Made by a program: the position numbers and the translations under genes. The notes under the pieces are model-generated. The model searched no databases. It worked only from the letters and a program-made list of their open reading frames with translations, and was not told where the DNA came from. This document shows positions 1,077 to 44,008 of a stretch of DNA of 48,152 bases, piece after piece. The number at the start of each line of letters is the position of its first letter. Position 1 is the first letter of the stretch. Location of the stretch: positions 1-48,152 of the IMG/VR virus record IMGVR_UViG_3300044948_000910; one strand, written 5' to 3'. The stretch comes from a virus.

Positions 1077-2807
1077 TTACCGATAGCCCAACCGACCCAG
1101 TTCGCGCCGCAAACAACTGTAATACGTTCCTGGGCCACTGTACTTTTGGGCACTTTCACAGGCACGCTCGATTGCTGCCTGTTCAGAATAATTCGCTCGA
1201 GACATGTCAGGCCGGCCACCAGATGAGCGCAAGTTCCCGAGTTCTCTTTTCAGACATCCATAGTACGCGCCTGGCCCACTGTACTTTTTGGAGCTGTCGC
1301 AAGCGCGTTCGATAGCTTCTTGCTCTGAACTAGTGGCACCTGACATATCTGGACGACCACCAGTAGACTGAAGATTTCCGAGCTCTCGTTTGAGACAAGC
1401 GTAGTACGCTCCCGGACCACTATATTTTCGGGCGCTATCGCAGGCCCGTTCAATAGCATCCAGTTCTGAGGAACTAGCCGCCGACAAATCTGGGCGACCA
1501 CCTGTTGAGTTCAAGTTTCCAAGTTCTCGTTTCAAGCAACCATAGTACGCCCCAGGCCCGCTGTATTTTCTCGCGCTGTCACAGGCTCGTTCTATTGCGT
1601 CTTTCTCGGAAGAGTTTGCCCTTGACATATCTGGTCTGCCACCAGATGAACGCAAACTACTAAGCTCTCGCTTCAAACAATCGTAGTACGCAGACGGTCC
1701 GCTGTATTTGCGAGCGCTATCACAGGCACGCTCAATGCCTTCTTGTTCAAACGAGTCTACTTGCGACAAGTCTGGTTTCCCCGATGTTTCACCTGTACCC
1801 CAGGATGGTGTCTGCACCGGTTTTGTTGCAGTGGGCGGAGGGGGCGCCGGGATAAATTGGGGCTGAATCGATGGTTGTGGTGGACTAGGCTCCTTTGCCT
1901 TTGGCCTTTCCGTACTTTGTAACTTACGAAGCAGATCTTCAGTTGGTTTCCCATCTGCAGTCAGGCCGCTATCCCGCTGAAACGAACTAATGGCCGAACG
2001 GGTTTTCCCTCCAATGAATCCATCAGCAGTACCAGCGTCGTAGCCCAGTACATTCAATCGCTGCTGTATGGCCTTAACAGTTGGGTCCGGCGTTGGCTTT
2101 ACGGCTTGCGGAGTAAGCTTTGGCGTAGCAGGCACCCCAGTAGAAAACCTTCCACGCCCTTCTGCTTGGAGGTCGGCACGGTAGCGCTCGACTTCGCTTC
2201 GCGCGCTTTCCAATGCCCCCTTGCGATAACGGAACTGGCCACAACGATTGTTGTAATCTGAAACCATCCCATTGAAACGATCGACATGGGAGTCAATGTA
2301 GTAATTGACCGCTGCCTTCGCAGATTCGAGTCGTATGTCCTCGGCCAAGCAATAGCGTAGCTGAGCGCTGCTCAAAACGGTATTAGTGCCGGCTGGTGGT
2401 AATTCTTCAGACAGTCTACTGGGGGCTGCCGGTGTTGCTGCAGGCGGCGAATACGAAGGGACCGAAGGGCTTGATGAGTAGGATGGCGACGCCTGATTCT
2501 TGTTTCCCGACCCTGCTGCCATCCAGATAACTGCTATTACCGCACCTATTCCAAGAACCCACTTCCAGCCTGAATTATCCGATGGTTGGGTCGGTGCTTG
2601 GTATGGTTGTGCTGTTGATTGTGTCTGGCTACTTTGCTGTGCACTTGTTGCGCTTTTCTGCTCCTCGTCGGGAACTACCTGCTTTGCAGAAACCGGAGTC
2701 GTCGGGGCTGACTTCGGAACGTCAGTGTCTATCTCAACATCTGACACCAGTGAAGAGAGGCCGGCAAAACCCGCCACATTTTTGTTTTTATCGTCCTCAG
2801 ATGACAT
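1077..2807 (-). CDS. Membrane-anchored repeat protein with peptidoglycan-binding domain
   Basis: A 576-residue protein of unknown function, last in the chaperone operon. The ATG at 2807 is chosen over an upstream GTG at 2816. Near the N-terminus is GFAGLSSLVSDVE, shared with the paralogue at 6208-7530. Then come a Gln/Pro-rich linker and one hydrophobic segment at about residues 81-99. The next shared domain, about 135-222, has conserved cysteines (RYCLAEDIR, NNRCGQF). A typical PG_binding_1 fold follows at about 244-297 (IQQRLNVLGYDAGTADGFIG). After a proline-rich linker there are five 47-residue repeats to the end, each with IERACDSARKYSGPGAYY-like text and two cysteines. The single anchor and wall-binding domain suggest that the C-terminal part is periplasmic and the N-terminal motif cytoplasmic. 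That orientation is inference. Confidence 0.85.
   Translation of the reverse strand: MSSEDDKNKNVAGFAGLSSLVSDVEIDTDVPKSAPTTPVSAKQVVPDEEQKSATSAQQSSQTQSTAQPYQAPTQPSDNSGWKWVLGIGAVIAVIWMAAGSGNKNQASPSYSSSPSVPSYSPPAATPAAPSRLSEELPPAGTNTVLSSAQLRYCLAEDIRLESAKAAVNYYIDSHVDRFNGMVSDYNNRCGQFRYRKGALESARSEVERYRADLQAEGRGRFSTGVPATPKLTPQAVKPTPDPTVKAIQQRLNVLGYDAGTADGFIGGKTRSAISSFQRDSGLTADGKPTEDLLRKLQSTERPKAKEPSPPQPSIQPQFIPAPPPPTATKPVQTPSWGTGETSGKPDLSQVDSFEQEGIERACDSARKYSGPSAYYDCLKRELSSLRSSGGRPDMSRANSSEKDAIERACDSARKYSGPGAYYGCLKRELGNLNSTGGRPDLSAASSSELDAIERACDSARKYSGPGAYYACLKRELGNLQSTGGRPDMSGATSSEQEAIERACDSSKKYSGPGAYYGCLKRELGNLRSSGGRPDMSRANYSEQAAIERACESAQKYSGPGTYYSCLRRELGRLGYR
1080..1784 (-). repeat. Five in-frame 141-bp tandem repeats
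   Basis: The repeats encode five copies of a 47-residue unit whose core is GRPD-S...IERACDSA-KYSGP-AYY-CLKRELG-L. Spacing between matching cysteines is constant at 47 residues. Copies differ at the DNA level, so they are not recent exact duplications. Confidence 0.9.
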
Positions 2808-2882
2808 GCGCCCCACCCACCCATCAATCGATTCAGCGAATCATCGCCAGAAAACTAACAGCCACAACGGCATTTAGTACAC

Positions 2883-3437
2883 TTAAATTTGCTCGTACAG
2901 TTTTTTTGCATCAAAACGATTAATTTTTAACTTCATCCCAATGTGTTCACATAGATTTGATACCGCCACATCTTCTGCCAAGAGCGAACGATCGACAGAA
3001 ACCAAAACCAATGCTTTGGAAATTGCATTGCTGGCGATATTCAATGCCTCAGGTTTTCCATGACCCATAGTCATTGTGATACCAGGAAGCTGCCATGGAA
3101 TTATTTCCTGTGTAAGGACATTCGATGCCTGGACATGGGCATTTGCCATGTCCTCGGCTGCTTGTTCGCAAAGCCGTTGAAACTCGTTTGAGAGCAAATA
3201 ACTTTGAGATGACGATTTCTTGACTGCAATAATCGCAAGAGCAATCGGCATAAACTCACCAAGAATAAAATCTTGCTGAATCAGCCTTGCTATGATTTCA
3301 TTTTGCCGCGGACTGGGCGGCGAGAGTTTTTTTAATCTTTCAACAGTTGAATACAACAAATCATATCCTGACGCCGAAAAGTCCACTCTTCCGGAAAATA
3401 CGCGAATTACCAAATTAAACAAATTTGCCATGAGCAT
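2883..3437 (-). CDS. Hypothetical protein of the chaperone operon
   Basis: About 184 residues. The frame is open further upstream, to 3605, but that part overlaps the preceding gene in another frame and has improbable composition. The start is therefore placed at ATG 3437, or at the in-frame ATG 3431. The sequence is mostly helical with a central hydrophobic stretch (FILGEFMPIALAIIAVKK) and no motif I recognise. It starts 44 nt after the stop of the previous gene and is more AT-rich than the chaperone genes around it. Its function can only be guessed from its company. Confidence 0.6.
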   Translation of the reverse strand: MLMANLFNLVIRVFSGRVDFSASGYDLLYSTVERLKKLSPPSPRQNEIIARLIQQDFILGEFMPIALAIIAVKKSSSQSYLLSNEFQRLCEQAAEDMANAHVQASNVLTQEIIPWQLPGITMTMGHGKPEALNIASNAISKALVLVSVDRSLLAEDVAVSNLCEHIGMKLKINRFDAKKLYEQI

Positions 3438-3480
3438 CCCATAATTCGATTTTTCTACGTGTTCTCTCGAGTGGATCTGT

Positions 3481-4125
3481 CTACTGCGACAAACTGCTTG
3501 TAAGCTGACTCTTGACCAGGTCCAACTTTGCTTTGTGGGCGAGAGGGCGCTTGAATACTTTGTTTTCGATTTGTTCTGAAACCTTGCTGATCGCAATGTA
3601 AGCAAAGCTGAGTCCCGAATTGCGCTCAGTCGACTTCATCTCGATAAAGTCGTACGGAAAGTTTTGACAGAATTTATGAAACCCGCAAAACTGAGGCACT
3701 TCTTGTGTGAAGTGGAATCCGTCAGGCGTCAGCCGAGAGCGACGGGGGTGATAGAAATCCGTGAAGAAAATAAACCACTCGTTTCCGAAAAACGTCACCG
3801 CCTCAAAAACATCGATAGTGTTGATTGCACCAATACGGTGAAAGAGAACACGCTCTCCCTTATTCGTTTCCAGCTTCGATAAGTAGGCAAGTTGTCCAAT
3901 GGGGCCGTTTACAGGGATTGGATTTGTCGCTGAGAACCCAAACGGACCACTTCCGTTGGGATCACGGTCGTAAGCCGGACTGGACTTGATCATTTCCTTC
4001 ATTGCCGGATGAAGCATTTCCAACTGAAATTCTTCATCCTCCATAATCCTCCGGATCTGTCCAAACGCTTCTTGAAGTGCTTTCTGCTCCTTGTTGCCTC
4101 CGAAGAGATTTGATAAGAAACCCAT
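3481..4125 (-). CDS. Hypothetical protein of the chaperone operon
   Basis: A 214-residue protein with ATG at 4125 preceded by AAGGGGG at good spacing. The N-terminus, MGFLSNLFGGNKEQ, is a short amphipathic stretch like those of peripheral membrane proteins. The middle is rich in aromatic residues and beta-like (EWFIFFTDFYHP, FCGFHKFCQNFPYDF). The C-terminus is helical. I do not recognise the family. Position between the J-like protein and a second unknown suggests a role with the chaperone set. Confidence 0.7.
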   Translation of the reverse strand: MGFLSNLFGGNKEQKALQEAFGQIRRIMEDEEFQLEMLHPAMKEMIKSSPAYDRDPNGSGPFGFSATNPIPVNGPIGQLAYLSKLETNKGERVLFHRIGAINTIDVFEAVTFFGNEWFIFFTDFYHPRRSRLTPDGFHFTQEVPQFCGFHKFCQNFPYDFIEMKSTERNSGLSFAYIAISKVSEQIENKVFKRPLAHKAKLDLVKSQLTSSLSQ

Positions 4126-4175
4126 AATACCCCCTTGAAAATATTGCTCTGGCCGGCGGCCGTAATTGATAACGA

Positions 4176-6191
4176 TTAGTCCCTGAAGTATTCGCTCAGC
4201 TTGGAAATGCCCTTCTTAAATCCGGATCTCACTACGTGATCCAGCAGATGGGTATTCCAATGACTCATATAGGATGCCGAGCCGTAAGTTTTCTTGTCGC
4301 TCTTGGAGCCAATCACAAACTCACCGTTTGCGCTCCAAACATGTACGTCGCTCCAAGACAATCGGATCTTCTCATTGGATCCCAATAATTTATGTTTCGT
4401 CAAAGTGACAGCTCCGTCTTCGACCAGCATGTCGCCAAAGTGCAGAGACCGTCCTTCTTCGAGGGCCTCGCTCATTTCGATCATCAACCGGACGCACACA
4501 GCCCGCCAGAGAGCCTCGATAAAGCCCGAGAAAGTAGATTCCTTTTTGAGGCTGATCTCTGTCGAATTATTTCGTGTTGCAAAAGCAATCGTGTAATCGG
4601 TGCCAGTCGGAATGCCGTTAACAGAGTGACTGACACTTCCCCATCTCACTGCAGTGATGGCATCGAGTGGATATCGATTGCCCTTCCAAACCACACCTTC
4701 AGGTGAAATACTGAGCGAATCTTTGAAGACAAGGCCAACATCAGCGTTAAACGTTATCGCTCGCGCCCACTCGGCCTCTCGTTTTTGGGCTTGTGCCTTC
4801 GCCTGCATTCGCTTCGTGTGGATGTCTGAAAGAGTATCGACGTCTTGCTCCACTCGCTCGGCCACCTCGGGTAACTCTGCAAATAGCTCCTGAATGAGAA
4901 TCGTCAGTCGCTTGGATGAGTCCAGCATGTCATGATTGTTGAAGAGATCAATAGCAAGACTACGTATGGAATAGGCCAACTCGTTGCTGTGGTCATGATC
5001 GATACCACGAGCTTTTGCGCTCAGCTGGATAGGCTGAGCAAACCTGTCCCAATTACGTGCAACTTTTTCGATCTTTTCGACCAGGGGCTTGATGGCACTT
5101 TCGCCTGATTCGGCAGAACTCCTGGCAGCCTGAACAAGCTTTTTAACATTTTCTGCTTCCCTCTCGAGGACACCCTGTACCTCTACTGCATAGCTGTCCA
5201 CCAGGTCGTCAATCAACTCCGGAGCATGGTCTTCACCATTACAGGTCGCACCATCGACAGCGAATGTCATCGCATCCAAGAGAGATGCGGGCGGGAGTCG
5301 ATTCAAAGCATCCTTAATTGCAGTCCTGAAGTATCGCTTACGCTCAAGTATTTCATGCTCGACTTGGTCATCCTTGATTTCCGGAAAACCCGATACTGCA
5401 CGATCTTCGTTTATGTCCCGGACGACTTCATCCAGATCGAGATCATCAACGAGGTAGGCCATCTCCTGAATGAACTCGGCAACATCATCTGCTTGATCAT
5501 TCGCATTAACAGCCTCGAACGCAGCTGCCATGAGATTGCAATGAGCGAGAGTCGGCAATCCGGACTCCACTCGGATTGCCATAGGATCACGCAGCAGACC
5601 TTCCAGTAGTTGCGACGCTTTACGGGGGGAAACGCCTGGGAGCCAGGCTATTTCCGCAGACAGTCGATTTCGTGGGTTGGTAAGGTCAGTTCGAGCCTTT
5701 TGGCAAACCTCATGATCCAGTTCAAGTGACTTTTCTTCTGCTTGTTCAACGATCTTCTTCCGATCGTCCCTGGTCGTAACACCCAAAATGGCAAATGGGT
5801 TCTTATGCAGGATTGTTGTCCGGATAGAGCGTGGAGTGCGTGTGCTTGTTGGGGGCGGCGGGGGGCGTGACGCAGCAGGCTTTGGCGGATTGCTAGGCTT
5901 CGCTGCTAAAGGAGACTCTGGTTCGCTCCGACCACCAAGCATCGCCATGAGCTGAGGATCTTTCAAAGCCTCGCTAGCCTGTGCAAGCAAATTCGCCGGT
6001 GCAGAGAGCTTCAAATGGTTTTTGATCTCATGTGCATAGCTCAAAAGCTGAGAGTTGGTGGATAGATGCTCACACAGCACTAGTGACAGGGCTAACGCCT
6101 GGTCACCTTTAGGTATGGCTCGACAGGACTTACATGCAGTCAGCGCACCAAACTTTTCTTCGCCACACTTAAAACAGATTGCTTTGGTCAT
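4176..6191 (-). CDS. Zinc-ribbon protein with a J-like segment lacking HPD
   Basis: A 671-residue protein. It begins with a CFKCGEEKFG...CKSC zinc ribbon (residues 6-23). A proline-rich linker leads to a segment at about 131-185 starting NPFAILGVTTRDDRKKI and ending in a stretch with NPRNRLSAEIAWLPG. The opening and the NPRNRLSAE block resemble J domains (position-for-position 'NPF-ILGV ... L-NP--R--AE'), but the HPD tripeptide that activates Hsp70 is absent, with ELDHEV at that place. A long helical region follows. The last 200 residues or so look like two PH-like beta domains (GVVWKGNRYPLDAITAVRWG). It lies in an operon with Hsp70-like and GrpE-like genes, so it is plausibly the J-type partner or a derivative of one. 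That function is inference. Confidence 0.75.
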   Translation of the reverse strand: MTKAICFKCGEEKFGALTACKSCRAIPKGDQALALSLVLCEHLSTNSQLLSYAHEIKNHLKLSAPANLLAQASEALKDPQLMAMLGGRSEPESPLAAKPSNPPKPAASRPPPPPTSTRTPRSIRTTILHKNPFAILGVTTRDDRKKIVEQAEEKSLELDHEVCQKARTDLTNPRNRLSAEIAWLPGVSPRKASQLLEGLLRDPMAIRVESGLPTLAHCNLMAAAFEAVNANDQADDVAEFIQEMAYLVDDLDLDEVVRDINEDRAVSGFPEIKDDQVEHEILERKRYFRTAIKDALNRLPPASLLDAMTFAVDGATCNGEDHAPELIDDLVDSYAVEVQGVLEREAENVKKLVQAARSSAESGESAIKPLVEKIEKVARNWDRFAQPIQLSAKARGIDHDHSNELAYSIRSLAIDLFNNHDMLDSSKRLTILIQELFAELPEVAERVEQDVDTLSDIHTKRMQAKAQAQKREAEWARAITFNADVGLVFKDSLSISPEGVVWKGNRYPLDAITAVRWGSVSHSVNGIPTGTDYTIAFATRNNSTEISLKKESTFSGFIEALWRAVCVRLMIEMSEALEEGRSLHFGDMLVEDGAVTLTKHKLLGSNEKIRLSWSDVHVWSANGEFVIGSKSDKKTYGSASYMSHWNTHLLDHVVRSGFKKGISKLSEYFRD

Positions 6192-6207
6192 TGCGTATTA
6201 CCAATCC

Positions 6208-7530
6208 TCAATTACGCAGTTGTGCCAATTGGCTCGACAGACACGCGTTGTAGGCAGCAGGTCCATTCACATACTTGTCGGTAGAGCAGGCAGCCTCGAT
6301 AGATTGCCGAGCTGACGCAGATAGCCCTGATAAATTCGGTCTGGAGCCTTGCTGCTCTAGCGCGTGCAACTGCGATGAAAGGCAGTTGTTATAGGCAGAG
6401 GGGCCGTTGACGTACTTGTCAGTGGAACAGGCTGCTTCAATAGACTCACGTTCGGACGACGACAATCGAGAAAGATCAGGTCTTCTGTTTTGGGGTGTGA
6501 GCGCTGAAGCTTGTTGCGTCAGGCAAGCGTTATATGCAGCCGGGCCATTGACGTATTTGTCAGTAGAGCAAGCGGCTTCGATCGACTCCCGCTCAGAACC
6601 GGAGAGCCGGCTCAGATCAGGTCTTCTCACACCATTTCGCAGAGCGTCCATCTGTCCTGCGATGCAGTTTTTATAGGCCGCAGGGCCATTGACGTACTTG
6701 TCGGTAGAACAGGCTGCCTCTATAGACTCCCGTTCAGGCCCTGAAAGTTGGGGATTCGCTATTGAAGAGACCTTTTGTTCCGGAACAACCGCAGGCGGTT
6801 CCGGATTGAGGGTGATTGTCGGCGAAGGTGATACAGACGCTGTGGCTGGCTTTCCTGCGAAATAGCCTCGTCCTTCAGCAGCGAGCTCGAATCGAAATGG
6901 TTCAATGTCGGAGCGGGCACTTTCTAATGCGCCAGACCGATATTTGAATGCACCACAACGACTGTTGTAATCAGCAACCATTGCGTTGAATTGGTCAACA
7001 TCAGAGTCCGCGTAGCTACTGAGACTGCCCTTGGCGGCCTCCATCCGAATATCTTCAGCTAGACAATATCGGATCTGAGCGGCGCCAAGTACATGATCCC
7101 TTCCGGCTGGCGGCATTTCTTCTGATGGCCGTCTTGGCGCCTGGGGCTCACTCACCGAAGATTGGGATGTCGGTGCCGTAGCATAATTACTCGGGGTATA
7201 ACTCGACGGTGATGATGTGTTTTTGTTGCCAGAGGCCCACACAAGCCAGATGACGCCAATCACCGCACCTATACCCAACAACCATTTGCCTCCAGAAGAT
7301 CCGCCGCTCGGCTGAACAGGTGCTTGGTATGCTTGTGGCGCAGGCTTAGCGACATGATCCTCTTGGGACGACGTGGCGCGAGGCTGCGGATTATTTGTTG
7401 CGGGACCAGGTTTGTTCTGTGTTTTCTGCTCAGGAGGCTCTACAGTCATATCGACGTCAGAAACCATCGAGGAAAGCCCCGCGAATCCTTGACCTGCACC
7501 TTCTTTTTTTTGTTCTTCCCCTGATGCCAC
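6208..7530 (-). CDS. Membrane-anchored protein with four 47-residue repeats
   Basis: A 440-residue paralogue of the protein at 1077-2807. It starts at GTG 7530, with AGGGGA upstream overlapping the end of the AAA+ gene. It has the same layout: N-terminal GFAGLSSMVSDVD, a Pro/Gln-rich linker, one membrane segment (about 82-100, GKWLLGIGAVIGVIWLVWA), a shared domain (about 138-225, RYCLAEDIR and CGAFKYRSGALESARSD), then four repeats from about 257. It lacks the peptidoglycan-binding domain of its paralogue. Repeat units contain RESIEAACSTDKYVNGPAAY and a second cysteine. Likely a bitopic inner-membrane protein with the repeats outside the cytoplasm. Function unknown. Confidence 0.85.
   Translation of the reverse strand: MASGEEQKKEGAGQGFAGLSSMVSDVDMTVEPPEQKTQNKPGPATNNPQPRATSSQEDHVAKPAPQAYQAPVQPSGGSSGGKWLLGIGAVIGVIWLVWASGNKNTSSPSSYTPSNYATAPTSQSSVSEPQAPRRPSEEMPPAGRDHVLGAAQIRYCLAEDIRMEAAKGSLSSYADSDVDQFNAMVADYNSRCGAFKYRSGALESARSDIEPFRFELAAEGRGYFAGKPATASVSPSPTITLNPEPPAVVPEQKVSSIANPQLSGPERESIEAACSTDKYVNGPAAYKNCIAGQMDALRNGVRRPDLSRLSGSERESIEAACSTDKYVNGPAAYNACLTQQASALTPQNRRPDLSRLSSSERESIEAACSTDKYVNGPSAYNNCLSSQLHALEQQGSRPNLSGLSASARQSIEAACSTDKYVNGPAAYNACLSSQLAQLRN
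6211..6762 (-). repeat. Four in-frame 141-bp tandem repeats
   Basis: The repeats encode four units in which the first cysteine recurs exactly every 47 residues (positions 274, 321, 368 and 415). The period matches that of the repeats at 1080-1784, although the consensus differs (CSTDKYVNGPAAY against CDSARKYSGPGAYY). Confidence 0.9.
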
Positions 7531-7540
7531 GGACTATCCC

Positions 7541-8980
7541 CTAAATAAACCCTATTCGCCGTTGCGATCCACCTTCGCGCTCTCTTGCTGGAGCAGAATC
7601 CATCGCGTCCAACAAGCTGTGATGGTCCAATTTGTCTTTTCCGGCGCGTGCGGCCAGTCTCGCTCCTTCGCGAATAACGAAGGTAACGTCGGACAAGGGG
7701 CGGCCAGCCAATTCCTTTGCTAAGGGTTTGGGATCTACGTCATCCTCTTTTGGTAACGTAGACAAGAGCGTTTCAAGCAAAGACAAGACTTCGCCTTCGC
7801 TTGCAAAGTCGACGTTGATGACATGATCGAATCGTCCGCGCCGCAAAATTGCGGGATCGATCATGTCGACTCGATTCGTCATGGCGATAATCAGCACGTC
7901 GTTCTTTGTTGCCTCTGGAATACGCCGCAAGAACTCAGCGACTTCTTCGACGCGGTGGTGTCCAGATCCCATTTCCCGATCAGCAAGGAAGGCTTCCATC
8001 TCATCAATAACGAGCACGGATGGCGAGTTTTGCATCGCCTTGTCGAATACTTCAGCGACCTTCTTGCTCGTCTCGTGAATGTACGGGCTGGCGACACTGG
8101 AGGCCTCAATCTGGAAACTTGGCCATCCCAGAAAATCGACCAGGCGCTCAACTGCAAAAGTCTTTCCACACCCTGGGGGGCCATGCAGAACTACCGCAGC
8201 GGGGAAATCTATACCTAATGCCTTATAGCGCTCACGGTTCTGAACGATATCGACAATGTGTTCGTTGAAAAAATCAGCAAGCTCAGGACGCCCAGCAAGT
8301 TCAAATACCCTGGGGGCTGATCCCTGGTCATGCGTTTCTGTCTTGGCTTCAGTTCTCTCTGTTTGTTTGGTCTCAGTGCGGTCGGGAGGTACCCGATGCC
8401 TATCGGCCGGAATTATTTCGGTAACTTCGATACCTGCAGCTTGGACTACATCTTTGAGGTGGTTAGCCCCAAGCCAACTCAAGGTTTGACGCAACCGCCT
8501 GAATGATTTGGCTGAAACACTTGCACCACCAGTTAGCCAATATCCGAGAACCACATCATCTTCAGTTCTTGAACTGATGCTGTAGGTTGGCAGGATGCGA
8601 CTGATCTTTTCGACGTACAAGGCATCCTGAAGAGGAGTCTCCGCATCGATATCACGCGTAGCCTTCAGCGCAAGCGCGAATGAAAGCGCTTCCGCCTTGG
8701 TGCTTGGTGAGTCACCATCAGAAACGGGGCAAAGGACTTGGCTTGATCCGCACGAGATTTCCCAAAGTACCGTCTCGCCAAAGTTGAATGAGCCAAATAG
8801 TCCTGCGTCGATCAGTCCCGCTTCAATCCATCGCTGAGCAAGCTCATTCTGGACAATAAGGGCACGGCCACCGCCTGGTGTTTCCAGAATTTGCCAATTC
8901 GGGCCCTCGAATAGTGCGACACGCGTCTTCGCGCCGTCAGGCAACTTGAAGCCAATTGGAAGCCACGCATCAAATGCCAT
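7541..8980 (-). CDS. Classical AAA+ ATPase
   Basis: A 479-residue protein. The N-terminal ~225 residues are not recognised and end in a charged Thr/Glu-rich linker. The C-terminal half is one AAA+ module of the Cdc48/FtsH type: Walker A HGPPGCGKT (about 266-274), Walker B VLVIDEMEAF (322-331), sensor 1 IIAMTNR (364-370) and arginine finger region LRRGRFD (379-385). No protease motif (HEXXH) is present, so it would be an unfoldase, remodeller or switch. It follows the Hsp70-like gene by 3 nt and its end overlaps the ribosome binding site of the next gene, so the genes are probably co-translated. Hsp70 plus AAA+ suggests disaggregation-like cooperation, which is inference. Confidence 0.9.
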   Translation of the reverse strand: MAFDAWLPIGFKLPDGAKTRVALFEGPNWQILETPGGGRALIVQNELAQRWIEAGLIDAGLFGSFNFGETVLWEISCGSSQVLCPVSDGDSPSTKAEALSFALALKATRDIDAETPLQDALYVEKISRILPTYSISSRTEDDVVLGYWLTGGASVSAKSFRRLRQTLSWLGANHLKDVVQAAGIEVTEIIPADRHRVPPDRTETKQTERTEAKTETHDQGSAPRVFELAGRPELADFFNEHIVDIVQNRERYKALGIDFPAAVVLHGPPGCGKTFAVERLVDFLGWPSFQIEASSVASPYIHETSKKVAEVFDKAMQNSPSVLVIDEMEAFLADREMGSGHHRVEEVAEFLRRIPEATKNDVLIIAMTNRVDMIDPAILRRGRFDHVINVDFASEGEVLSLLETLLSTLPKEDDVDPKPLAKELAGRPLSDVTFVIREGARLAARAGKDKLDHHSLLDAMDSAPAREREGGSQRRIGFI

Positions 8981-8983
8981 AGA

Positions 8984-11476
8984 TCAACTCCGCACGATAT
9001 TCGTGCTGGCCATCATTTCATCATCGCCAGCCGAGCCGATACGCACCGAGTCAAGATGCGCCACCACTGCCCTTAGTTTGTCGATATCGTTTGCCTTCAG
9101 TGCCTCGGTTCCCGCTGCAACCAACTGTGCATGCTCGTGCACATCCGGAAAAAGATATGAGTCTTGGGCCAGCCACTTGAAGCGGTCGATCACGAACCAG
9201 TCCTGCCGCCACAGAATCAAGAAGTTCTTCCCTCGCAATTCGTCCAGGTGGCTTTCAAAATCACCACTGTTGTTGTCGATCGAACGCTGTGCTGTCTTGG
9301 CTAGATTGTCGAATGCATTCGCTTCAGTTGGGCGGGCATGTTCCCGAACGTGCTTATCGAAAAATTCCACTGCCTTATCGAACTCAAGCTGGCGAATTTC
9401 CTTCAGATGCTCCTTGCGAGCAAGAGCCAGTAGTCGCTTGGCCTCCTGGACATTGTCCATTGCCTGTTTGGCCGCTTCGGGGTCAGTCTCACCCGACTTC
9501 ATGGATTCCGCTTGCTCTAATTTCTCGCGAGCCTGATCCAGTTTCGGATCATCGATCTTCGATGCCATTTCTTCTAAACGCGCCATCGCGTGCTCGGATT
9601 GCTCTTCAACCAGTTTTGAAGCTTTGGTGTAATCGATTTGGCCGTCCTGGCGGGAGTAGAAGTTGCGCCCACTGTGAAACAAGCCGCCAATTGAAGGTAC
9701 CGAAACCTCCATCTTGATGTTCCCGGAATCCAGGATTTCGTATTCACAGATGAGCTCGGCGCCAGCAGCTATAACTCCATCGTCAAAGTCTGAACCTTTG
9801 ATCTCAAACATCCCGATGAAACGGTTATCGGTGACTGGATCCGAGATTTCACCTTCCCACAGTTTGAACTTGATAGATCCAGCGCTACCGGCCTTGAGGG
9901 ATTCCTCGGATTTGAAGGTCTTCTTGCCCTTCTTAGGCAACTGATCGCCTTCTCGGACAAGATGATCAAGGACGATCCGTCCGCCCAGTTTGTCCCGAGC
10001 TTCCACGCCGATGGAGTGAGAAGCGGGAATTGCATCGATGCTGGCAGCCGTCCTGGAAATTACGATCTTGTCTTCACGAAGGGCAACAGGCCCACCCTTG
10101 GAATCAAAGACGAAGACCTTAAACATGTTCTCCCCAGGCTTCGCTAGACTAAGCTCGACCGACGCGCCATCCTTAAGCGCCAAGCGGCCTGACGACCATC
10201 CGGTGTCCAGACTGTCAATCTGGAATTCCGCGCCATCAGCTGCCTTCCCACCGAGCTTGGCCATCACCTTGGCCTTTGAGTCTGGGGTCCGAGAAATGTA
10301 GTTAAAGGAAAGGTCTAGCGCGCCTCCCGCACTAATTGCCCCTCTAGCATTTTTGCGGCCACGAGTTTGCGACGACCAGTCGATTGATTCGGCAAAGACA
10401 GCCGCACCTTCAGCCACTGCCGTCATGGGGTTAACGTCTGTCGAAGAAGCGATGCCAAGTTCAAAAGCAACTTTGTCTCTGAGCGGCTTGTACTGTGTTG
10501 GACCTCCTACGAACACCACACGCTCAACGTCGTGCGGGCTATATCCAGCTTTCTCTAGGGTTTCGCGAGCGGACTGAATGGATTCTTCGAGCTTGCCAGA
10601 GATCAGATCATCAAGTAGATCTCGGCCAAACGGGATATCGACGTAGATTTCCCCACCGGACTCATCTGTAACGCCGAGATCAGACTCAGTCAGGCTGATT
10701 ACGGACTCTTCCTTCGCAGATAGCTCGATTTTTGCCTTTTCAGCAGCCCAAAGGCACATTCTGATAAGCGACTTGTACTTGGCATTGGCACTGAAATCGT
10801 CAGGGAGCTCAAAGTTGGAAAGCAGCCACGGCTTCACGACGTTATCAAGGATGGCGCGATCAAAATCGGTACCGCCACACATGGCAACACCGCCGTGAGC
10901 CAATAAACTGACGCGACCGCTAATGCTTTCTGCAAGAGCAATATCCAATGTGCCGCCACCAAGGTCGAACACGAGGAAGACACCATCGCCTTTTCGCTGT
11001 CGCATAACACTCATGACAGCCGCGACCGGCTCCTGCATCAAGGCAACACTCCCCAGGCCGGCCATTTCAGCCGCAGCCAATGTTGCATCCTTTTGCATCT
11101 GATTGAAGGCAGCAGGAACGGTAATGACGGTTCCAGTCTCTCCGCTATTTCGGATTTCCTCCGGAAGGTAGCCAAAGCATAACTTCAGAATTTCTGCGGA
11201 GCACTCTTCTGGCGTCATCGTAATGTTTACCGCCCCCAACTTCACCGGGGTGCTCGTCCCCATCATGCGTTTGAACTTGGTCGCGGCATTATCTGGATTC
11301 TTTGCGGCACTATCGTATGCACGCTTACCAAGGTACTTGTTGCCTCTTCGATCAATGAAGATGGCTGACGGCGTTACGTCGTTTTGATCGGGGCTCTTGT
11401 ACAAGCGCACAGATTCCCCGTCATAGGAACAAATGGCACTGTTCGTCGTGCCGAGGTCAATCCCGATGTATTTCAT
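8984..11476 (-). CDS. Hsp70/DnaK-like chaperone with long C-terminal extension
   Basis: An 830-residue protein. The actin-like ATPase domain is complete: phosphate 1 IGIDLGTTNSA (4-14), phosphate 2 VFDLGGGTLDIAL (169-181) and adenosine motif VVFVGGPTQYKPLRD (320-334). It is longer than a housekeeping DnaK (about 640 residues). Beyond about residue 370 the substrate-binding part is divergent, beta-rich and followed by a long charged helical tail rather than a DnaK lid ending in EEV. The ATG overlaps the stop of the GrpE-like gene (ATGA). It is therefore a specialised Hsp70, not the cell's main DnaK, most likely acting with the GrpE-like, AAA+ and J-like products of the same operon. Confidence 0.9.
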   Translation of the reverse strand: MKYIGIDLGTTNSAICSYDGESVRLYKSPDQNDVTPSAIFIDRRGNKYLGKRAYDSAAKNPDNAATKFKRMMGTSTPVKLGAVNITMTPEECSAEILKLCFGYLPEEIRNSGETGTVITVPAAFNQMQKDATLAAAEMAGLGSVALMQEPVAAVMSVMRQRKGDGVFLVFDLGGGTLDIALAESISGRVSLLAHGGVAMCGGTDFDRAILDNVVKPWLLSNFELPDDFSANAKYKSLIRMCLWAAEKAKIELSAKEESVISLTESDLGVTDESGGEIYVDIPFGRDLLDDLISGKLEESIQSARETLEKAGYSPHDVERVVFVGGPTQYKPLRDKVAFELGIASSTDVNPMTAVAEGAAVFAESIDWSSQTRGRKNARGAISAGGALDLSFNYISRTPDSKAKVMAKLGGKAADGAEFQIDSLDTGWSSGRLALKDGASVELSLAKPGENMFKVFVFDSKGGPVALREDKIVISRTAASIDAIPASHSIGVEARDKLGGRIVLDHLVREGDQLPKKGKKTFKSEESLKAGSAGSIKFKLWEGEISDPVTDNRFIGMFEIKGSDFDDGVIAAGAELICEYEILDSGNIKMEVSVPSIGGLFHSGRNFYSRQDGQIDYTKASKLVEEQSEHAMARLEEMASKIDDPKLDQAREKLEQAESMKSGETDPEAAKQAMDNVQEAKRLLALARKEHLKEIRQLEFDKAVEFFDKHVREHARPTEANAFDNLAKTAQRSIDNNSGDFESHLDELRGKNFLILWRQDWFVIDRFKWLAQDSYLFPDVHEHAQLVAAGTEALKANDIDKLRAVVAHLDSVRIGSAGDDEMMASTNIVRS

Positions 11477-11847
11477 GACTCTGCCTTCCTGAGCATCACT
11501 GTGCCTTGTTTTTTTAGCCCTTCGGGGCCCATGATGATGGGTTCCACCATCTGATCAACCAAGAGTTGATCATCAGGATCAAAGTCGCCAATGTTTAAAG
11601 CCGATGCTGCCATGCCGGGATCGAAAGGCTGGCCTTCGACGTTAACCAACTTCAGGCCGCTCGCATCAAGGCTATCCTCGACCTTCTTTTGGAAATAGCG
11701 AAGCTGGTTGACGTATCTGGCACCTTCTCCTGCATCCAGCTTGTTAACCACCCGCGCAAAGAGCCTAGAAAAACGCCAGCTTTCAACAGCGACATCGATC
11801 AGTGATCGTTCCAGCTGCTCATTATTCTGATTGTTATCAGTTGTCAT
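11473..11847 (-). CDS. Divergent short GrpE-like nucleotide exchange factor
   Basis: A 124-residue protein starting at ATG 11847 (TAATG overlap with the decayed upstream gene, G-rich stretch upstream). An N-terminal helix region (RSLIDVAVESWRFSRLFARV) is followed by a GrpE head-like part. The segment GLKLVNVEGQPFDPGMAASA fits the GrpE pattern of a hydrophobic-G-PFDP-(H)-A motif, and the last 20 residues resemble the closing beta strand (QGTVMLRKAE). It is shorter than a typical GrpE (about 190 residues) because the long N-terminal coiled coil is reduced. It would exchange nucleotide on the adjacent Hsp70-like protein. The assignment rests on these motifs and on gene order. Confidence 0.65.
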   Translation of the reverse strand: MTTDNNQNNEQLERSLIDVAVESWRFSRLFARVVNKLDAGEGARYVNQLRYFQKKVEDSLDASGLKLVNVEGQPFDPGMAASALNIGDFDPDDQLLVDQMVEPIIMGPEGLKKQGTVMLRKAES

Positions 11848-12309: not shown

Positions 12310-12432
12310 TAAACATCCCTTATTATCATCATAATGAGTATCACTAAGTCGCATAACGCCGCTATAGACTTAGCTTAGTGCGACACATATACTGTGCGCA
12401 AGAGTGCCAACCAGCCATTATTGGCTCGCAAG
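12310..12432. promoter_or_regulatory. Divergent promoter/operator region
   Basis: This region separates the leftward chaperone operon from the rightward defence operon. For the rightward side, TAGACT (12365-12370) and TATACT (12388-12393) are 17 bases apart and make a plausible -35/-10 pair. Overlapping inverted repeats surround it: CTAAGTC (344-350 of 12,000) with GACTTAG (367-373), and CACTAAG (342-348) with CTTAGTG (374-380). Such sites overlapping a promoter, next to a WYL regulator gene, suggest an autoregulatory operator. An AT-rich leftward stretch (TATGATGATAAT on the minus strand) could serve the chaperone operon. Confidence 0.55.
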
Positions 12433-13335
12433 ATGTCAAACGAAGAAATTTCAGAACTGACTCAGCCCCAGCGCGACCGACTCGCCTTCATCGAGTTGCG
12501 TCTGCGCTTCATCGGGGAAATTCGCCGCCAGGATTTGGTGGCACGATTTGGTATCCAGGCGGCGGCTGCGACAAGGGATATCGCCCAGTACAAAGAGATT
12601 GCTCAGCGCAATCTCGACTACGACCCCAAGGGCAAGGTGTACGTGCGCGGCGAGTGGTTTCGCCCGGTGTTCGAGTATCCGGTAGAGCGCGTGCTCGCTT
12701 GGCTGTCGCAGGGGTTTGGGGATGGTGAGCCACTACGGTTCAAATCTCTTGTTTCATGTGAAGGGCCTGCGTTATTAAACAAGCCGGATCTCGAAACGCT
12801 GTCTGTGCTGACGCGCGCCATTCATCGAAAGGGTGTTGTCGAGATTTCATATCGAGCGTTGTCCAGCGGACTGACCACGCGGGAGATCGTCCCGTTTGCA
12901 CTGGCTGACAACGGGTTGCGCTGGCATGTACGTGCCTATGATCGGCGCAGTGGCGAATTTCGGGATTTTGTCCTGACACGTATTGCCGATGCCCGACTGA
13001 TATCTGGCCGCACTGAAGAACACGAGATGCCAGACCAGGACATCCAGTGGACCCGAATTGTCGAGCTTGAACTGGTGCCGCACCCGGCGAACGTCCAGCA
13101 TCCCGACGCTATTGAAGCCGACTATGGCATGGATGGCGGGGCTCTTCGCATTCGTGTCCGTGCCGCTGTGGCAGGCTACCTGCTCCGCCGATGGAACGTG
13201 GACTGCACCGAGAATCACGGCCTCAAAGGTGCCGAGTACCACCTGTGGCTTCGCAATCACCTATCGCTGGTTGATGTAGCCAACCTCAGTATCGCGCCTG
13301 GGTACGTAGCGCCGACACGATCAACGGACAATTGA
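12433..13335 (+). CDS. WYL-domain transcriptional regulator (BrxR/CapW-like)
   Basis: A 300-residue protein. An upstream in-frame GTG at 12394 lies directly behind the predicted -10 element, so the ATG at 12433 is preferred. The N-terminus (QRDRLAFIELRLRFIGEI, then RQDLVARFGIQAAAATRDI) is the winged-helix part typical of BrxR/CapW-like regulators. The middle carries the WYL-type beta domain (IHRKGVVEISYRALSSGLT, LRWHVRAYDRRSGEFRDFVL). Members of this group repress defence operons and bind inverted repeats upstream of their own gene. It stands first in the operon with matching inverted repeats at its promoter. Confidence 0.9.
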   Translation: MSNEEISELTQPQRDRLAFIELRLRFIGEIRRQDLVARFGIQAAAATRDIAQYKEIAQRNLDYDPKGKVYVRGEWFRPVFEYPVERVLAWLSQGFGDGEPLRFKSLVSCEGPALLNKPDLETLSVLTRAIHRKGVVEISYRALSSGLTTREIVPFALADNGLRWHVRAYDRRSGEFRDFVLTRIADARLISGRTEEHEMPDQDIQWTRIVELELVPHPANVQHPDAIEADYGMDGGALRIRVRAAVAGYLLRRWNVDCTENHGLKGAEYHLWLRNHLSLVDVANLSIAPGYVAPTRSTDN

Positions 13336-13966: not shown

Positions 13967-16900
13967 ATGCTGAAGCTAGAGCAGATCCAGAAAAACGCAG
14001 CCATCTCCGGCATTGAGCCCGGACAAGTGGTGCGTGTCGTGACCACGGAACCGGCTGGCGACAGCGCTCTCACCGTCTATTACAAAACATCGGATGGCAA
14101 ACTTCTGGAGCGGATGCTGTTCCGCACAGACGAGGCAAATCTGTCGTTGGCCGAGGCCGGTCGGCCGTGGGCGTTCGATGCGCCAGGCGAAGAATTCAAG
14201 CTTGCCACCGAAGCCTACCGGATCAATCTGGCGCACCTGTTCGATCCGATGATGGCCGTCCATACGTCCAACGTCGAACCACTGCCGCACCAGATTACGG
14301 CAGTCTACGAATCTATGCTGCCGCGCCAGCCGCTGCGCTATGTACTGGCGGATGACCCTGGTGCAGGCAAGACCATCATGGCCGGGCTGTTCATCCGTGA
14401 ACTGCTGATGCGTGCCGACGCCAAGCGTGTGCTGATCGTCGCGCCCGGCAGCCTGGTCGAACAGTGGCAAGACGAAATGTTCGAGAAGTTCGGTCTGTCC
14501 TTCTTGCTGTTTTCCCGCGAGCAAGTTGAACAATCACGAAGTGGCAATCCCTTCGACGACATCGACCTGATGGTTGCCAGGGTAGACCAGCTATCCCGTA
14601 GCGAAGACCTCCAGGAAAAGCTGCGCCTTTCGCATTGGGATCTGATCGTCGTCGACGAAGCGCACAAGCTCTCGGCCAGCTACTTTGGCAACAAGGTCAA
14701 CAAGACCAAACGCTTCCAACTCGGCGAATTGCTGGGTTCTATTACCCGCCACTTTCTGCTGATGACCGCCACGCCTCACAACGGCAAGGAAGAGGACTTC
14801 CAGTTATTTATGTCGTTGCTGGACTCCGACCGCTTCTACGGCAAGTTCCGCGATGGCGCGCACAAGGTCGATGTCACCGATCTGATGCGCCGAATGGTCA
14901 AGGAAGACCTGCTCAAGTTTGATGGCTCCCCCCTGTTCCCCGAGCGCCGTGCCCGCACTGCCAACTACAAACTCTCCGACAAGGAGGCCGCGCTTTACGC
15001 CGCTGTCACCGACTACGTGAAGGAGGAGATGAACCGTGCGGATCAATTGCAAGATGGCGCACGTAAGGGCACGGTAGGCTTCGCGCTGACCTCGCTGCAG
15101 CGCCGCCTAGCATCGAGCCCGGAAGCTATCTACCAGTCGCTCAAACGCCGTAGCAACAAGCTCAAGCGTCGTGTCGAGGAAGAAAAACTTCGTCAGCGTG
15201 GCCAGACGCTGGCAGAGACCATAAGCCTGAACAATATCCCCGAGGACATTTGGGAATCTGCTGATGCACTCTCACCGGACGACTACGAGAACTTCGAAGA
15301 AGCCGTCGTCGATCAAGCCACGGCAGCACAGACCATCCAGGAGCTTGAGGCCGAAATCATCATCCTCGAAGGTCTGGAGGAACAGGCCCGCCAGGTCGTC
15401 CACTCTGGCCAGGATCGCAAGTGGGATGAGCTATCCAAACTACTGCAGAACACGCCCGAGATGCACGATGCAGACGGTCGTCAACGTAAGCTCATCATCT
15501 TCACCGAGCACCGCGACACGCTGAACTACCTCGCGGTCAAGATTCGCGGCCTGATCGGCAACGAAGAGTCTGTCGTGATGATCCACGGCGGCGTCAAACG
15601 CGAAGATCGCCGCAAGGTGCAAGAGCTATTCCGCAACGATCCGGACACCCGCGTGTTGCTGGCCACCGATGCGGCGGGCGAAGGTGTGAACCTGCAAAAC
15701 GCCAACCTGATGGTCAACTACGATCTGCCGTGGAACCCCAACCGGCTGGAGCAGCGCTTCGGTCGTATCCACCGCATCGGCCAGACTGAGGTCTGTCACC
15801 TGTGGAACATGGTCGCCGCCGAAACCCGCGAGGGCGACGTATTCCAGCGCCTGTTTGAAAAACTGGAGGTCGAGCGCAAAGCGCTGGGCGGTCGCGTGTT
15901 CGACATCCTCGGCGAGGTGTTTGAAGAAAAAAGCCTCAAAGACCTGCTGATCGAAGCCATCCGCTACGGTGATGACCCCGAGATACGCGCCCGACTGCAC
16001 CGCAAGGTCGAAGGCGCCCTCGATACTCAGCACCTCGAAACCATCATCAAGCGCAACGCACTATGTGAAGAGGTGATGGACGAGCGACGCCTGTTTGCCG
16101 TCAAGGAAGAGATGGAAAAGGCCGAAGCCCGCAAGCTGCAACCCTATTTCATCCGCTCCTTTTTCAACCAGGCATTCCAGCAACTTGGCGGCGAGCTGCG
16201 CCCCCGCGAGCAAGGCCGTTACGAGATCACCCACGTTCCGGCCAATATCCGCGAACGGGATCGGCAAATCACAGGCCGCGACCGTCGCAATGCCGACCCG
16301 GTGCTGCGCCGCTATGAGCGAGTCTGCTTCGAGAAGCAGTTCGTCCGTCTCACCGAGCGGATTGGCGCACCGATGGCCAGCCTGATGCATCCAGGCCATC
16401 CGCTCATGCAGTCCGTGACCGATCTCGTGCTGGAACAGCATCGCAACAAGCTCAAGCAGGGAACTGTGCTGGTCGATCCGAGCGACATGGGCATCACACC
16501 CAAGGTGATGTTCATCATCGACCACTCGGTGAGAGAAGGCGCCGACCCCGCCCACGTCGTGTCTCGCCGTATGCAATTTGTCGAGATCGACCCACAAGGC
16601 AGCGCAATCAACGCCGGCTGGGCACCCCACCTCGACCTGGAGCCGATCAGCAAGGCGGATATGGGCTTGATCGAGGATGTACTGAGCGCGTCCTGGCTCA
16701 GTGGTCAGCATGGCCAGATCCTTGAACAAGTTGCTCTCTCTCATGCCGCCACGCACCTTGTGCCCGAGCACTTTGACGAAGTACGCACCCGGCGTGAAAA
16801 GAACGTCGACAAGACCCTGACTGCTGTACATGAGCGTCTCGTCAAAGAAATCAACTACTGGTCGGATCGCTACATCAAGTTTCAGGACGACATTGCCGCC

Positions 16901-17518
16901 GGCAAAGACGTGCGTCTGACGCTCGAAAACGTCCGCCGCACGATTGACGACCTGACCACACGACGGGAGTCGCGTGAGAAAGAATTGCTGGGGATGCGCC
17001 ACGTCATCTCGGCAACACCGGTTGTAGCGGGGGGCGCATTGGTGATTCCCGCCGGACTGCTGATGCAGCGCAAGGCGCAGCCAGGATGGACGGCTGACGC
17101 CGATGCGCGTGCGAGAGTCGAGTGGGTGGCAATGAAGGCCGTGATGGACGCTGAACGCGCACTCGGTCACGAAGTCATCGATGTTTCGGCGCAGAAATGC
17201 GGCTGGGACTTGACCAGCCTGCCGAAAAGTACAGATGGCAAGATTCCGCCCTCGCGCCACATCGAGGTCAAGGGCCGAGCCAAGGGCAACACCACGGTCA
17301 CGGTCACCCGCAACGAAATCCTCTACGGGCTGAACCAGCAGGACAAATTCATCCTGGCCATCGTCCTCGTCGATGGTGAACAACACGAAGGGCCGTTCTA
17401 CGTGACCAAGCCCTTCACGCAAGAACCGGATTGGGCGGTCACCAGCATTAACATGGATTTGCAGGAGCTATTGAAACGCGCAAATCCTCCCGAAAGGAAT
17501 AAAAGTCATGCGGATTGA
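13967..17518 (+). CDS. SNF2-family helicase with C-terminal DUF3883 (Hma/DISARM-like)
   Basis: An 1183-residue protein. The N-terminal helicase core has Walker [13 protein letters not shown] (129-140) and DEAH at about 230-233, with [10 protein letters not shown] as motif III. A long helical insertion follows, then the second RecA domain ([20 protein letters not shown] and [17 protein letters not shown]). The last ~140 residues contain a DUF3883-type domain (GWDLTSLP...[10 protein letters not shown]). This architecture is that of the helicase found with DUF1156 methylases and DUF499 ATPases in Hma/DISARM-like defence loci. The gene overlaps the next by 11 nt. The ribosome binding site is weak, so translation may depend on the upstream genes. 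Confidence 0.9.
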
Positions 17519-18971
17519 ACATGTTTACCTAAAAAACTACCGCTGTTTTGACTCTCTATCGGTGGATCTCCATCCACAAATGACAGTCTTGGTTGCGCCA
17601 AACGGCCAGGGCAAAACCAGCGTGCTAGATGCCATCAAAGTAGCTCTGTGGCCCTATGTCGCAGGTTTTGATTTGGGTAGCACAACTAACGATGTGACAA
17701 GCATCCAGATTGATGACGTGCGGCGAGAGCAAGTGCAATCGCATGAGATGGACTGGCGGCTACCTGCAGAAATCAAAGCAATGGGGCAATTACAGGTTCG
17801 CCAACTCGTTCTTGATGGCACCCTGAAGAATCCACTCCCAGAGCCTGCAGGCTCGATGCTTGATGTTGCCGTTACCTTTCATGAGGACGTTCCCTGGCAG
17901 GGTGTGCGCTATCGGGAAAGTGTCAAAAAAGGAACAAAAACCAAAGAGCCAGTTATTGTGGGCGCGTTGAATCTCAACGAAACCGCAAAGGCTTTAGAGC
18001 AGCGGATATTTTCGGGTGAGCAAAAAACACCTGACGACTTGCCGATGCTGGGCTACTACGGGACTGGCCGACTCTGGGCGCAAAAAAAGCTTACGTCTGC
18101 ACATGAGAAAGCTGACAGTGAGGCGTCGTCACGCACTTTTGCCTACCGGGACTGCCTGGACCCGGCATCCAGTTACAAGCATTTCGCCCAATGGTACACA
18201 CGGATTTTCAAGTCGTTCCGGGCAGCGCAGATTCGCAATCTCGAAAAGCGCTTACCTCTGGACGCAGATGTTTCCTATGGGTTGATTGCACCTATCAGGG
18301 CTGTTCAGCTCACCACAGATGCAATTCTGGGGTCTCATACGGGTTGGAGAGAGCTTGAGTACAGCGAGGAGCATGAAGAGCTGGTGCTGACCCACGAGCA
18401 GTATGGGCAACTCAAGGTTAGCCAACTCAGCGACGGCATCCGCAACATGCTGGCATTGGTAGGGGACATTGCGTACCGCTGCTACAAGCTCAACGCTCAT
18501 CACGGCGAAGCCGCACCACTCCGTACGCATGGCATTGTGCTCATCGACGAAGTGGATATGCACTTGCATCCGGGCTGGCAACAGACTGTCTTGACCGATC
18601 TGATAACGGCTTTCCCAAAACTGCAATTCATCGTTACCACTCACAGTGCCCAAGTGCTGACCACGATCCCATCAGAGTGCATCCGCATATTGAGAGACAA
18701 CCAGATTTATTCCGCACCGCCGGGAACGGAAGGTGCTGAGCCGGAGCGCATGCTCAAGCAAGTGCTGGGGTTGCATGAAGTTCGCCCCCCTGCCAATCCA
18801 GCGACTCAGGAACTGAAGGAATACCTCGCATTGGTCGACAACGACCAATGGAATTCCCCTCGTGCCCTGGAATTGCGCGAAAAGCTGAATGCCCGCTACC
18901 AGGGCAACGAACCGGCATTGCTGGAAGCCGACTTGCGTATCGAAAACCGCAAGTGGGAGCTAGGAGAATGA
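17508..18971 (+). CDS. ptuA: ABC-type ATPase, Septu PtuA-like
   Basis: A 487-residue protein starting at ATG 17508, inside the end of the helicase gene and preceded by AAAGGAA. It is a complete RecF/OLD-like ABC ATPase: [16 protein letters not shown] opening, Walker [10 protein letters not shown] (30-38), signature LSDGIRN (about 307-313), Walker [16 protein letters not shown] (342-356) and H-loop VTTHSAQ. No TOPRIM nuclease domain is visible, so nuclease activity must come from a partner. The next gene, an HNH protein overlapping by ATGA, supplies it. This pair is the hallmark of Septu. The symbol is by analogy with PtuA. Confidence 0.75.
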
Positions 18972-19780: not shown

Positions 19781-19782
19781 TC

Positions 19783-22671
<2,889 letters not shown>

Positions 22672-22685
22672 TTGAGGAGCAGCAG

Positions 22686-26953: not shown

Positions 26954-26956
26954 AAA

Positions 26957-27448: not shown

Positions 27449-27465
27449 GCGAGGAATCTGGAGAT

Positions 27466-40983: not shown

Positions 40984-41212
40984 GAAGAAGTCTCCTCAGA
41001 CGAATTGGAAGGGGTGATTGGTGGTGAGGTGCGGATGGATGACGTCCGTCGTCGGGCGTGCGGTGGTCTGTCCGGATCGCTGACCAAGACTGGACGCGCG
41101 ACACCGGAATCCACCAGCCAGCGGGCCAGCGACGTGTCGAGTTCGATGCGGTCACGCGGCTGGTAGTCGCGACCGGCGTGGGTGTGGGGTATCAGGGTTC
41201 AACGAGGGGCAT
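40980..41212 (-). pseudogene. Small phage tail gene with apparent one-base frameshift
   Basis: From ATG 41212 the frame reads MPLVEP and then hits a TGA. Adding one base there would join it to a frame reading LIPHTHAGRDYQPRDRIELD, TSLARWLVDSGVARPV and on to a stop at 40980, coupled to the tail tube start (ATGA). The second part looks like a genuine short phage protein of the type found upstream of tail genes. Either a base is missing (mutation or sequencing error), or translation starts at an in-frame CTG. Confidence 0.55.
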
Positions 41213-41215
41213 GGC

Positions 41216-41656: not shown

Positions 41657-41712
41657 GGTTTCCCTTCAGGGGGTCATAAAATCGGCACATTGCGAACAGG
41701 GAGGACGTCCCC

Positions 41713-42612: not shown

Positions 42613-42709
42613 GCGGGCTGCCAGAAAGAATTGGCGCAGAGATTGGATTGATTTTGCAATTTGTATCCGTTGTTAATCAATAAGTTAAAAATAACTATTG
42701 GAGTGAAAC

Positions 42710-44006: not shown

Positions 44007-44008
44007 GG

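Follow-up and report, generated by a model that had tools for sequence, protein, structure and literature searches.

The co-occurrence of five genes, encoding a GrpE-like factor, an Hsp70-type ATPase, a Cdc48-type AAA+ ATPase, a membrane-anchored protein and an adaptor, exceeds chance, and this core gene set is a conserved unit. The operon is read here, with a probability of about 0.5, as a horizontally moving, membrane-tethered, ATP-driven protein-remodelling machine that acts mainly in phage defence. The assignment to phage defence derives from the mobility and rarity of the operon, from its neighbouring genes and from the swapping of an exposed protein cassette. If the operon is protective, it would provide defence by protein remodelling and not by the cutting of nucleic acids.

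A conserved five-gene core with accessories

The window, i.e., the whole stretch of DNA that was analysed, is a 48,152-base IMG/VR record. It carries on its minus strand an operon of eight ORFs, which runs from 11847 to 1077 and is transcribed in the order H (GrpE-like), G (Hsp70), F (AAA+), E, D, C, B, A; all coordinates given below for features of these genes refer to this strand. The eight leftward ORFs named in a preliminary description of this DNA are all present, and the ATG start of the GrpE-like gene at 11847 coincides with the operon end proposed there. Gaps of -4, 3, 10, 16 and 50 nt lie between successive genes from H to C, so that six genes are tightly packed. A gene for a WYL-domain regulator (12394..13335, plus strand; PF13280, 2e-12) is divergent from the operon.

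Searches of genomes, plasmids and viral contigs yielded 89 loci of the close type, in which gene presence was determined by iterated profiles on the locus ORFs. The core consists of H, G, F, E and D in a near-constant order (H-G-F-E-D or H-G-F-D-E, with few exceptions), and C, A and B are accessories. All five core genes were found in 67 of the 89 loci, the remainder being mostly truncated by contig ends, and the Hsp70 gene is accompanied by each of the other four core genes in 94-99% of the loci with a sufficiently long contig: H lies beside it in 82 of 83 testable loci, F is present in 79/83, D in 62/63 and E in 59/63, no E being detected in the other four. An overlap of 4 nt between H and G is seen in 65 loci. 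Of 32 genomes with the Hsp70, 31 also yielded D, as a single copy except in one genome with two. Among the deviating arrangements, Sinorhizobium and Aminobacter have H and G as well as D and E, with no AAA+ gene detected, and a Pseudomonas plasmid (L012) carries a D-like gene together with the Hsp70. In the 61 loci with all five core genes, the pairwise distances among these genes are correlated with Spearman coefficients of 0.71-0.88, while permuted distances (200 permutations each) gave values of at most 0.37. The divergence of the core genes is correlated because whole operons share ancestry, i.e., travel together.

The preliminary description had regarded all eight genes as one system and had proposed to tabulate their co-occurrence. 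A dedicated, co-conserved set does exist, but it amounts to the five-gene core plus accessories. Gene C (3481..4125), coding for a 214 aa protein without a Pfam family, occurs in only 21 of 61 testable loci, and A is a paralogue of E. For B (2883..3437), iterated profiles revealed no homologue in any of the 89 loci outside the window, and its membership in the system is doubtful; its TTG start overlaps C, and the ATG at 3437 is the likelier start. A profile search of the window proteins assigned no Pfam family to B, C, D or E at the Pfam cut-off.

The chaperone and AAA+ components

G (8984..11476) encodes an Hsp70-type ATPase of 830 aa with a canonical nucleotide-binding domain and a divergent C-terminal half. 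Its initial assignment as Hsp70-like is confirmed by the Pfam HSP70 match (PF00012, E=1.4e-52), which is confined to residues 4-363. The ATPase motifs DLGTTNS and DLGGGT are intact, and the phosphate and adenosine motifs of the actin-like nucleotide-binding domain are present. In comparison with a set of genomic DnaK and HscA proteins, hhalign returned 100% for the nucleotide-binding domain and 0.07% for the C-terminal half, for which a PDB profile search gave no useful match either. A multiple alignment hints that this half contains a diverged substrate-binding beta domain. The canonical hydrophobic linker VLLLDVTPLS, which is thought to carry allostery, is absent from G in the alignment with genomic DnaK/HscA; it is replaced by an extra region of ~110 residues between the nucleotide-binding domain and the part resembling a substrate-binding domain (approximate limits 10037..10354). 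The tested genomes with the operon also encode an ordinary DnaK and other Hsp70s. In the Aeromonas caviae plasmid pKAM471, the Hsp70 gene is split into two ORFs (L007:15001-17498), and the A. simiae copy (L038) is intact.

H (11473..11847) is a candidate nucleotide-exchange factor of ~124 aa. Its description as GrpE-like holds with regard to its position beside the Hsp70 gene and to weak PF01025 matches in the family, 16 of 50 members scoring E < 0.1 (best 0.0019), but the window protein itself lies under the Pfam cut-off with a value of 0.037. The hhalign comparison with GrpE gave 40%, and a PDB profile search returned nothing useful.

F (7541..8980) encodes an ATPase of 479 aa for which the proposed Cdc48 type was borne out, CDC48 and VCP being nearest by profile (PF00004, E=3.9e-31; CDC48, 7e-43; VCP chains, ~1e-52 across residues 239-447). 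It contains only one AAA stretch and not two tandem AAA rings. No protease domain was seen in F, and its N-terminal region is of no recognised type. The PADLOC 2023 collection returned no match for A, B, C, D, E, G or H and matched F through the AAA domain only, including IetA profiles (3.9e-26). Membership in IetAS is ruled out, as the similarity is limited to the AAA+ domain and the operon lacks the subtilisin-like partner.

An exchangeable membrane protein and its adaptor

E (6208..7530) was identified as a membrane-anchored protein of 440 aa by family alignments and an AlphaFold2 model, and A (1077..2816) encodes its paralogue of 579 aa. The two paralogous anchored proteins with 47-residue Cys repeats that had been noted at first were found as such, with one membrane helix each and with four repeats in E and five in A. 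To these features can be added a conserved domain past the membrane helix and a PG_binding_1 domain in A (PF01471, E=6.1e-16; residues 245-299, 1920..2084). Near its N-terminus, E carries a GFAGL motif (7474..7488; longer form GFAGLSS.VSDVD), which is expected to be cytosolic and is located within the first 90 residues in 81 of 91 E proteins. It is followed by the single membrane helix (residues 83-99, 7234..7284), seen in sequence and model, and by a helical domain (residues 138-226, 6853..7119) that is conserved, contains a Cys pair and is expected to be periplasmic. This domain exhibits invariant C156, N189, R191 and C192 in the family alignment and was modelled with a pLDDT of ~90-98; for E, no significant PDB match emerged from the fold search (best E 2.6). 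The four Cys repeats (6211..6750) are modelled as helical hairpins. Across the family, the N-terminal motif, membrane helix and conserved domain are constant, whereas the C-terminus is variable and contains Cys repeats, peptidoglycan-binding or transglycosylase domains. The Cys pairs, together with the latter two domains, suggest that the C-terminal side of E is periplasmic.

The C-termini of E are swapped among near-identical operons, the Hsp70 staying 97-99% identical. Between L025 and L026, the Hsp70 proteins are 97.0%, the D proteins 97.5% and the N-terminal parts of E 87% identical, while the C-terminal parts of E share 38% identity. L038 and L006 have 99.3% identical Hsp70 proteins and a common peptidoglycan-binding part, but E repeats of different classes; the C-terminal part of E in L007 is identical to that of L038, and the TnsA beside L007 and that of L006 share one protein accession. 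Conversely, L025 and L028 have a similar E cassette (92%) and only 62% identity in D. From these three comparisons it follows that two positions vary, each independently of the other. Clustering of the E C-termini merged most cassette classes, and no class count is drawn from it. By eye, the E protein of L021 (12840-14996) is likely to bear an SLT transglycosylase domain in its C-terminal part, and the E C-termini of L080 (13914-15104) and L042 (12841-14151) look LprI-like and TPR-like, which suggests a wider range of exchanged cassettes. Natural operon pairs of this kind, in which the motors are near-identical and the E cassettes differ, allow the question of specificity to be tested directly.

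D (4176..6191) encodes a putative adaptor of 671 aa. Its AlphaFold2 model (mean pLDDT 93 with 49 homologues) comprises short helices at the J-like segment (5637..5813), a long core of helices, and a C-terminus rich in beta strands. From its strand pattern (DSSP), the latter may be read as a tandem PH-like module (4257..4751), for which a weak DUF6585 match was also obtained; the fold search for D returned no significant PDB match (best E 0.085). The protein had been described as a zinc-ribbon protein with a J-like segment. The CxxC...CxxC ribbon (C6, C9, C20 and C23; 6123..6176) is indeed present in the window protein and confined to a subclade of the family, and the helix pattern of the J-like segment within the whole-protein model is similar to that of J domains, with 3% in hhalign. 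The HPD motif, however, is absent from this segment in all 82 D proteins, so that D fails the defining test for J-domain proteins and its role as a canonical J protein is ruled out. Since D lacks the HPD motif and the linker of G is replaced, canonical Hsp70 cycling is unproven for G. The C-terminus of D is PH-like in 57 proteins; 13 have another type with membrane helices at the end, and a few are singletons, some of which also carry membrane tails. This exchange of PH-like for membrane-spanning tails points to membrane placement of D as the role of the PH-like part.

E and D are also found in other arrangements. On an Aminobacter plasmid, both are fused into one 841-residue ORF without the GFAGL motif. 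Three genomes contain a module of only three genes, E, C and a distant D, from which H, G and F are missing; E thus pairs with D even without the motor. A related Hsp70 C-terminus was not found in these three genomes, an empty answer that is weak by the search tool's own warning. The modules (L162:8450-12148, L163:6788-10465 and L164:8523-11484) are apparently chromosomal and adjoin ssb, ychF, prs or hda, purM, core genes which were named by eye from the sequence. A docking of E to D through GFAGL is weakened by the E proteins of Sinorhizobium and several others, which lack the motif even though D is separate.

The location of the modules beside housekeeping genes suggests a possible general role of E and D in the envelope. 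This is in line with the main rival of the phage-defence reading, according to which the operon confers envelope proteostasis or stress resistance by maintaining or extracting proteins of the inner membrane and cell wall that have been damaged; its presence in defence islands would then reflect only the accumulation of mobile accessory genes there. Mobile heat-resistance loci offer a comparison for such a role. Peptidoglycan-binding domains in 13 of 38 E proteins, a transglycosylase domain in one of the 38, and secreted and RDD membrane proteins encoded after C in several loci are in agreement with it. This explanation is a serious rival but is considered the less likely one, because the operon is rare and has a strong defence neighbourhood relative to the control (see below), and the rapid swapping of an exposed cassette would be unusual in a housekeeping chaperone. 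If it were an envelope stress machine, the operon would still represent a widespread Hsp70 system that lacks a name, and two protein families that are new. As to the genes after C, a secreted-looking protein of 217-219 aa recurs downstream of C in L006, L007, L013, L034, L038, L039 and L092; in some of these seven loci, C and a second E are also followed by genes for a small protein with signal-peptide character and for a membrane protein of the RDD family.

Another explanation holds that the chaperones fold, export or anchor the Cys-repeat proteins E and A, whose own role would lie elsewhere, for example in surface exclusion or adhesion. E is the sole membrane or exported protein encoded in the core, the chaperone genes are co-inherited with it, and several loci contain two E genes. 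The occurrence of E with D but without chaperones in the three module genomes, together with the four of 63 testable loci without a detected E, makes this scenario quite improbable.

In the preferred model of a remodelling machine in phage defence, E would serve as the inner-membrane anchor and probable sensor, with its variable C-terminus meeting the target in the periplasm or cell wall. Its cytosolic GFAGL tail would dock the adaptor D, which would be held at the inner membrane face by its PH-like or membrane-spanning C-terminus. The HPD-less J-like segment of D could then recruit or position the Hsp70 G, which would be reset by the GrpE-like H, and the Cdc48-type F would pull or unfold the client. 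In anti-phage action, such a complex might sense infection through an event at the envelope, or through a phage protein that enters or is inserted into the membrane, and capture or extract that protein. The topology of E beyond its one membrane helix, the E-D docking, the coupling of Hsp70 to AAA+, the client and the defensive purpose are thus predictions of this model. The dedicated machine linking chaperones to envelope proteins that the preliminary description had envisaged is retained insofar as the Hsp70, GrpE-like and AAA+ set is co-conserved with anchored envelope proteins, but with an HPD-less J-like segment and a core of five genes.

Compared with DnaK-DnaJ-GrpE, the operon similarly combines an Hsp70 nucleotide-binding domain with intact motifs, an adjacent GrpE-like gene and a J-like segment in D. 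Unlike that system, it lacks HPD, has a replaced linker and an Hsp70 C-terminal half with no relationship detectable by profile, and adds an AAA+ ATPase and a membrane anchor. Cdc48/VCP acts with Hsp70 and J proteins in membrane extraction, as in ER-associated degradation. By analogy, the Cdc48-type AAA+ domain and the Hsp70 of the operon may cooperate at the membrane in a similar way; in contrast to that pathway, the operon is bacterial, with a single AAA+ domain and no ubiquitin system.

Chaperones are known phage host factors and helpers in phage sensing. Phage sensing by bNACHT25 depends on host DnaJ (PMC12169576), which renders such a role plausible; bNACHT25, however, uses a housekeeping chaperone of the host, whereas the operon provides a dedicated set. 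CoCoNuT type III systems also include an Hsp70-like protein within a predicted defence operon, CnuD, which carries degenerate Walker A-like motifs (PMC11090510). The motifs of the operon Hsp70 are intact, the operon has no McrB GTPase, McrC homologue or HEPN domain, and membership in CoCoNuT is ruled out, as no McrBC partner profile was found among its proteins. The earlier statement that no named system has this gene set was upheld, as no name for the operon was found in Pfam, NCBIfam, PADLOC or open-licence PMC papers; a description may nonetheless exist in a closed paper or preprint. Nor was any description found in the open papers of a dedicated Hsp70 and AAA+ system that travels with defence genes and a swappable envelope sensor. 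The chance that the operon represents a categorically new type of anti-phage system is put at somewhat less than even. Such a system would be an Hsp70/AAA+ machine tethered to the inner membrane, with an exposed sensor that is exchanged as a cassette, and its one motor could thereby respond to different infection signals without a nuclease or toxin of its own.

Mobility and the defence-gene neighbourhood

Most of the 89 loci belong to Pseudomonadota, and the others are spread over about seven further phyla. Planctomycetota, Nitrospirota, Gemmatimonadota, Synergistota, Poribacteria and Fibrobacterota are represented by single rows, some of which may be binning errors since the sequences come from metagenome bins. 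The Hsp70 tree mixes families and phyla, with very short distances between Lysobacter and Methylotetracoccus, between Acidovorax and Sinimarinibacterium, and among Pseudomonas, Pusillimonas and Acidovorax. The operon occurs on plasmids and adjoins Tn7-like transposition genes in Shewanella and Aeromonas; on these plasmids, TnsA, TnsB-type, ATPase, TnsD and TnsE genes are located directly upstream of it (L006:6565-14177, L007:6562-14177). One E. coli harbours the operon in a tRNA-Phe island, and the Hsp70 was found in 1 of 5,426 E. coli genomes. D was present in 7 of 369 genomes of one class (5 strong) and H in 2 of 299 genomes of a phylum sample, the true rates being at most these fractions because the samples include genomes already known as carriers. 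The operon is thus rare, occurring in about 1% of genomes. A phage-borne origin was discarded, as 50,697 phage records contained no match and IMG/VR contributed just four contigs besides the window; D as a lone query gave no match in viral contigs. At the right end of the window, the minus strand carries prophage late genes (36057-47263; tail tape-measure-like, DUF6441, S49 peptidase and lambda-type portal proteins). The operon in the window is more likely island cargo than phage core.

For the neighbourhood analysis, the closest flanking genes encoding 200 aa or more were taken from either side of the operon (112 genes) and compared with PADLOC at a threshold of E<=1e-20; 106 genes from random windows in operon-bearing genomes, unmatched for mobile islands, served as control. 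The frequency near defence genes, which the preliminary description had put forward as a check, is raised: operon neighbours match 68 PADLOC families, among them HmaC, HEC-05, RT-Toprim, BilD, TmtA, PDC-S04, two SoFic and QatC, compared with 7 of a generic kind for the random windows. As PADLOC families are redundant, these counts correspond, by reading of the matches, to roughly 8 to 11 defence genes versus at most ~6 in the control, and the contrast lies in the strength and specificity of the matches. On a Polaromonas plasmid, the operon is located beside Zorya and BREX-2, and the E. coli locus places it near RADAR rdrB and a dptF remnant. HMA genes lie beside the operon in three loci, namely the window, L043 and L058, and in L043 an HmaC-like, co-directional gene ends 39 nt before H. 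WYL regulators also adjoin the operon in L013, L018 and L034, in the examined stretch of which no HMA gene was found.

In the window, the claim that the operon sits directly beside a defence operon proved correct. Beyond the WYL regulator, a plus-strand island carries genes for HmaA, PtuA with its HNH partner, HmaB, HmaC, ThsA and ThsB, i.e., for HMA, Septu and Thoeris. Within this stretch (13967-28059), the Septu pair (PtuA, 17508-18971; HNH protein, 18848-19780) is inserted between HmaA and HmaB, and the Thoeris genes ThsA and ThsB, then a TIR-like ORF at 27466, follow HmaC with ends that overlap or nearly touch. The plus-strand run thus comprises three defence systems.

The adjacency of HMA in three loci, once co-directional and 39 nt upstream, and the co-directional PLD, ResIII and NYN genes downstream in single lineages would also be compatible with a role as a second layer, in which the operon would protect or assist nuclease systems next to it (HMA, BREX, Zorya) instead of acting by itself. 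The defence partner differs among loci, and such a dependence is therefore regarded as very improbable. It also counts against the phage-defence reading itself that the core encodes no effector that kills or cuts nucleic acids, and that an island neighbourhood is not a function.

The genes located closely downstream in single lineages encode NYN-LOTUS, PLD-like and ResIII helicase proteins (L048:15280-16131, L057:15356-16132, L003:16729-18436 and L049:16353-18371). In L072 (15476-21202), a co-directional gene ~64 nt after the operon encodes a 1909-residue protein with Sacsin/HATPase and NO VEIN C-terminal domains.
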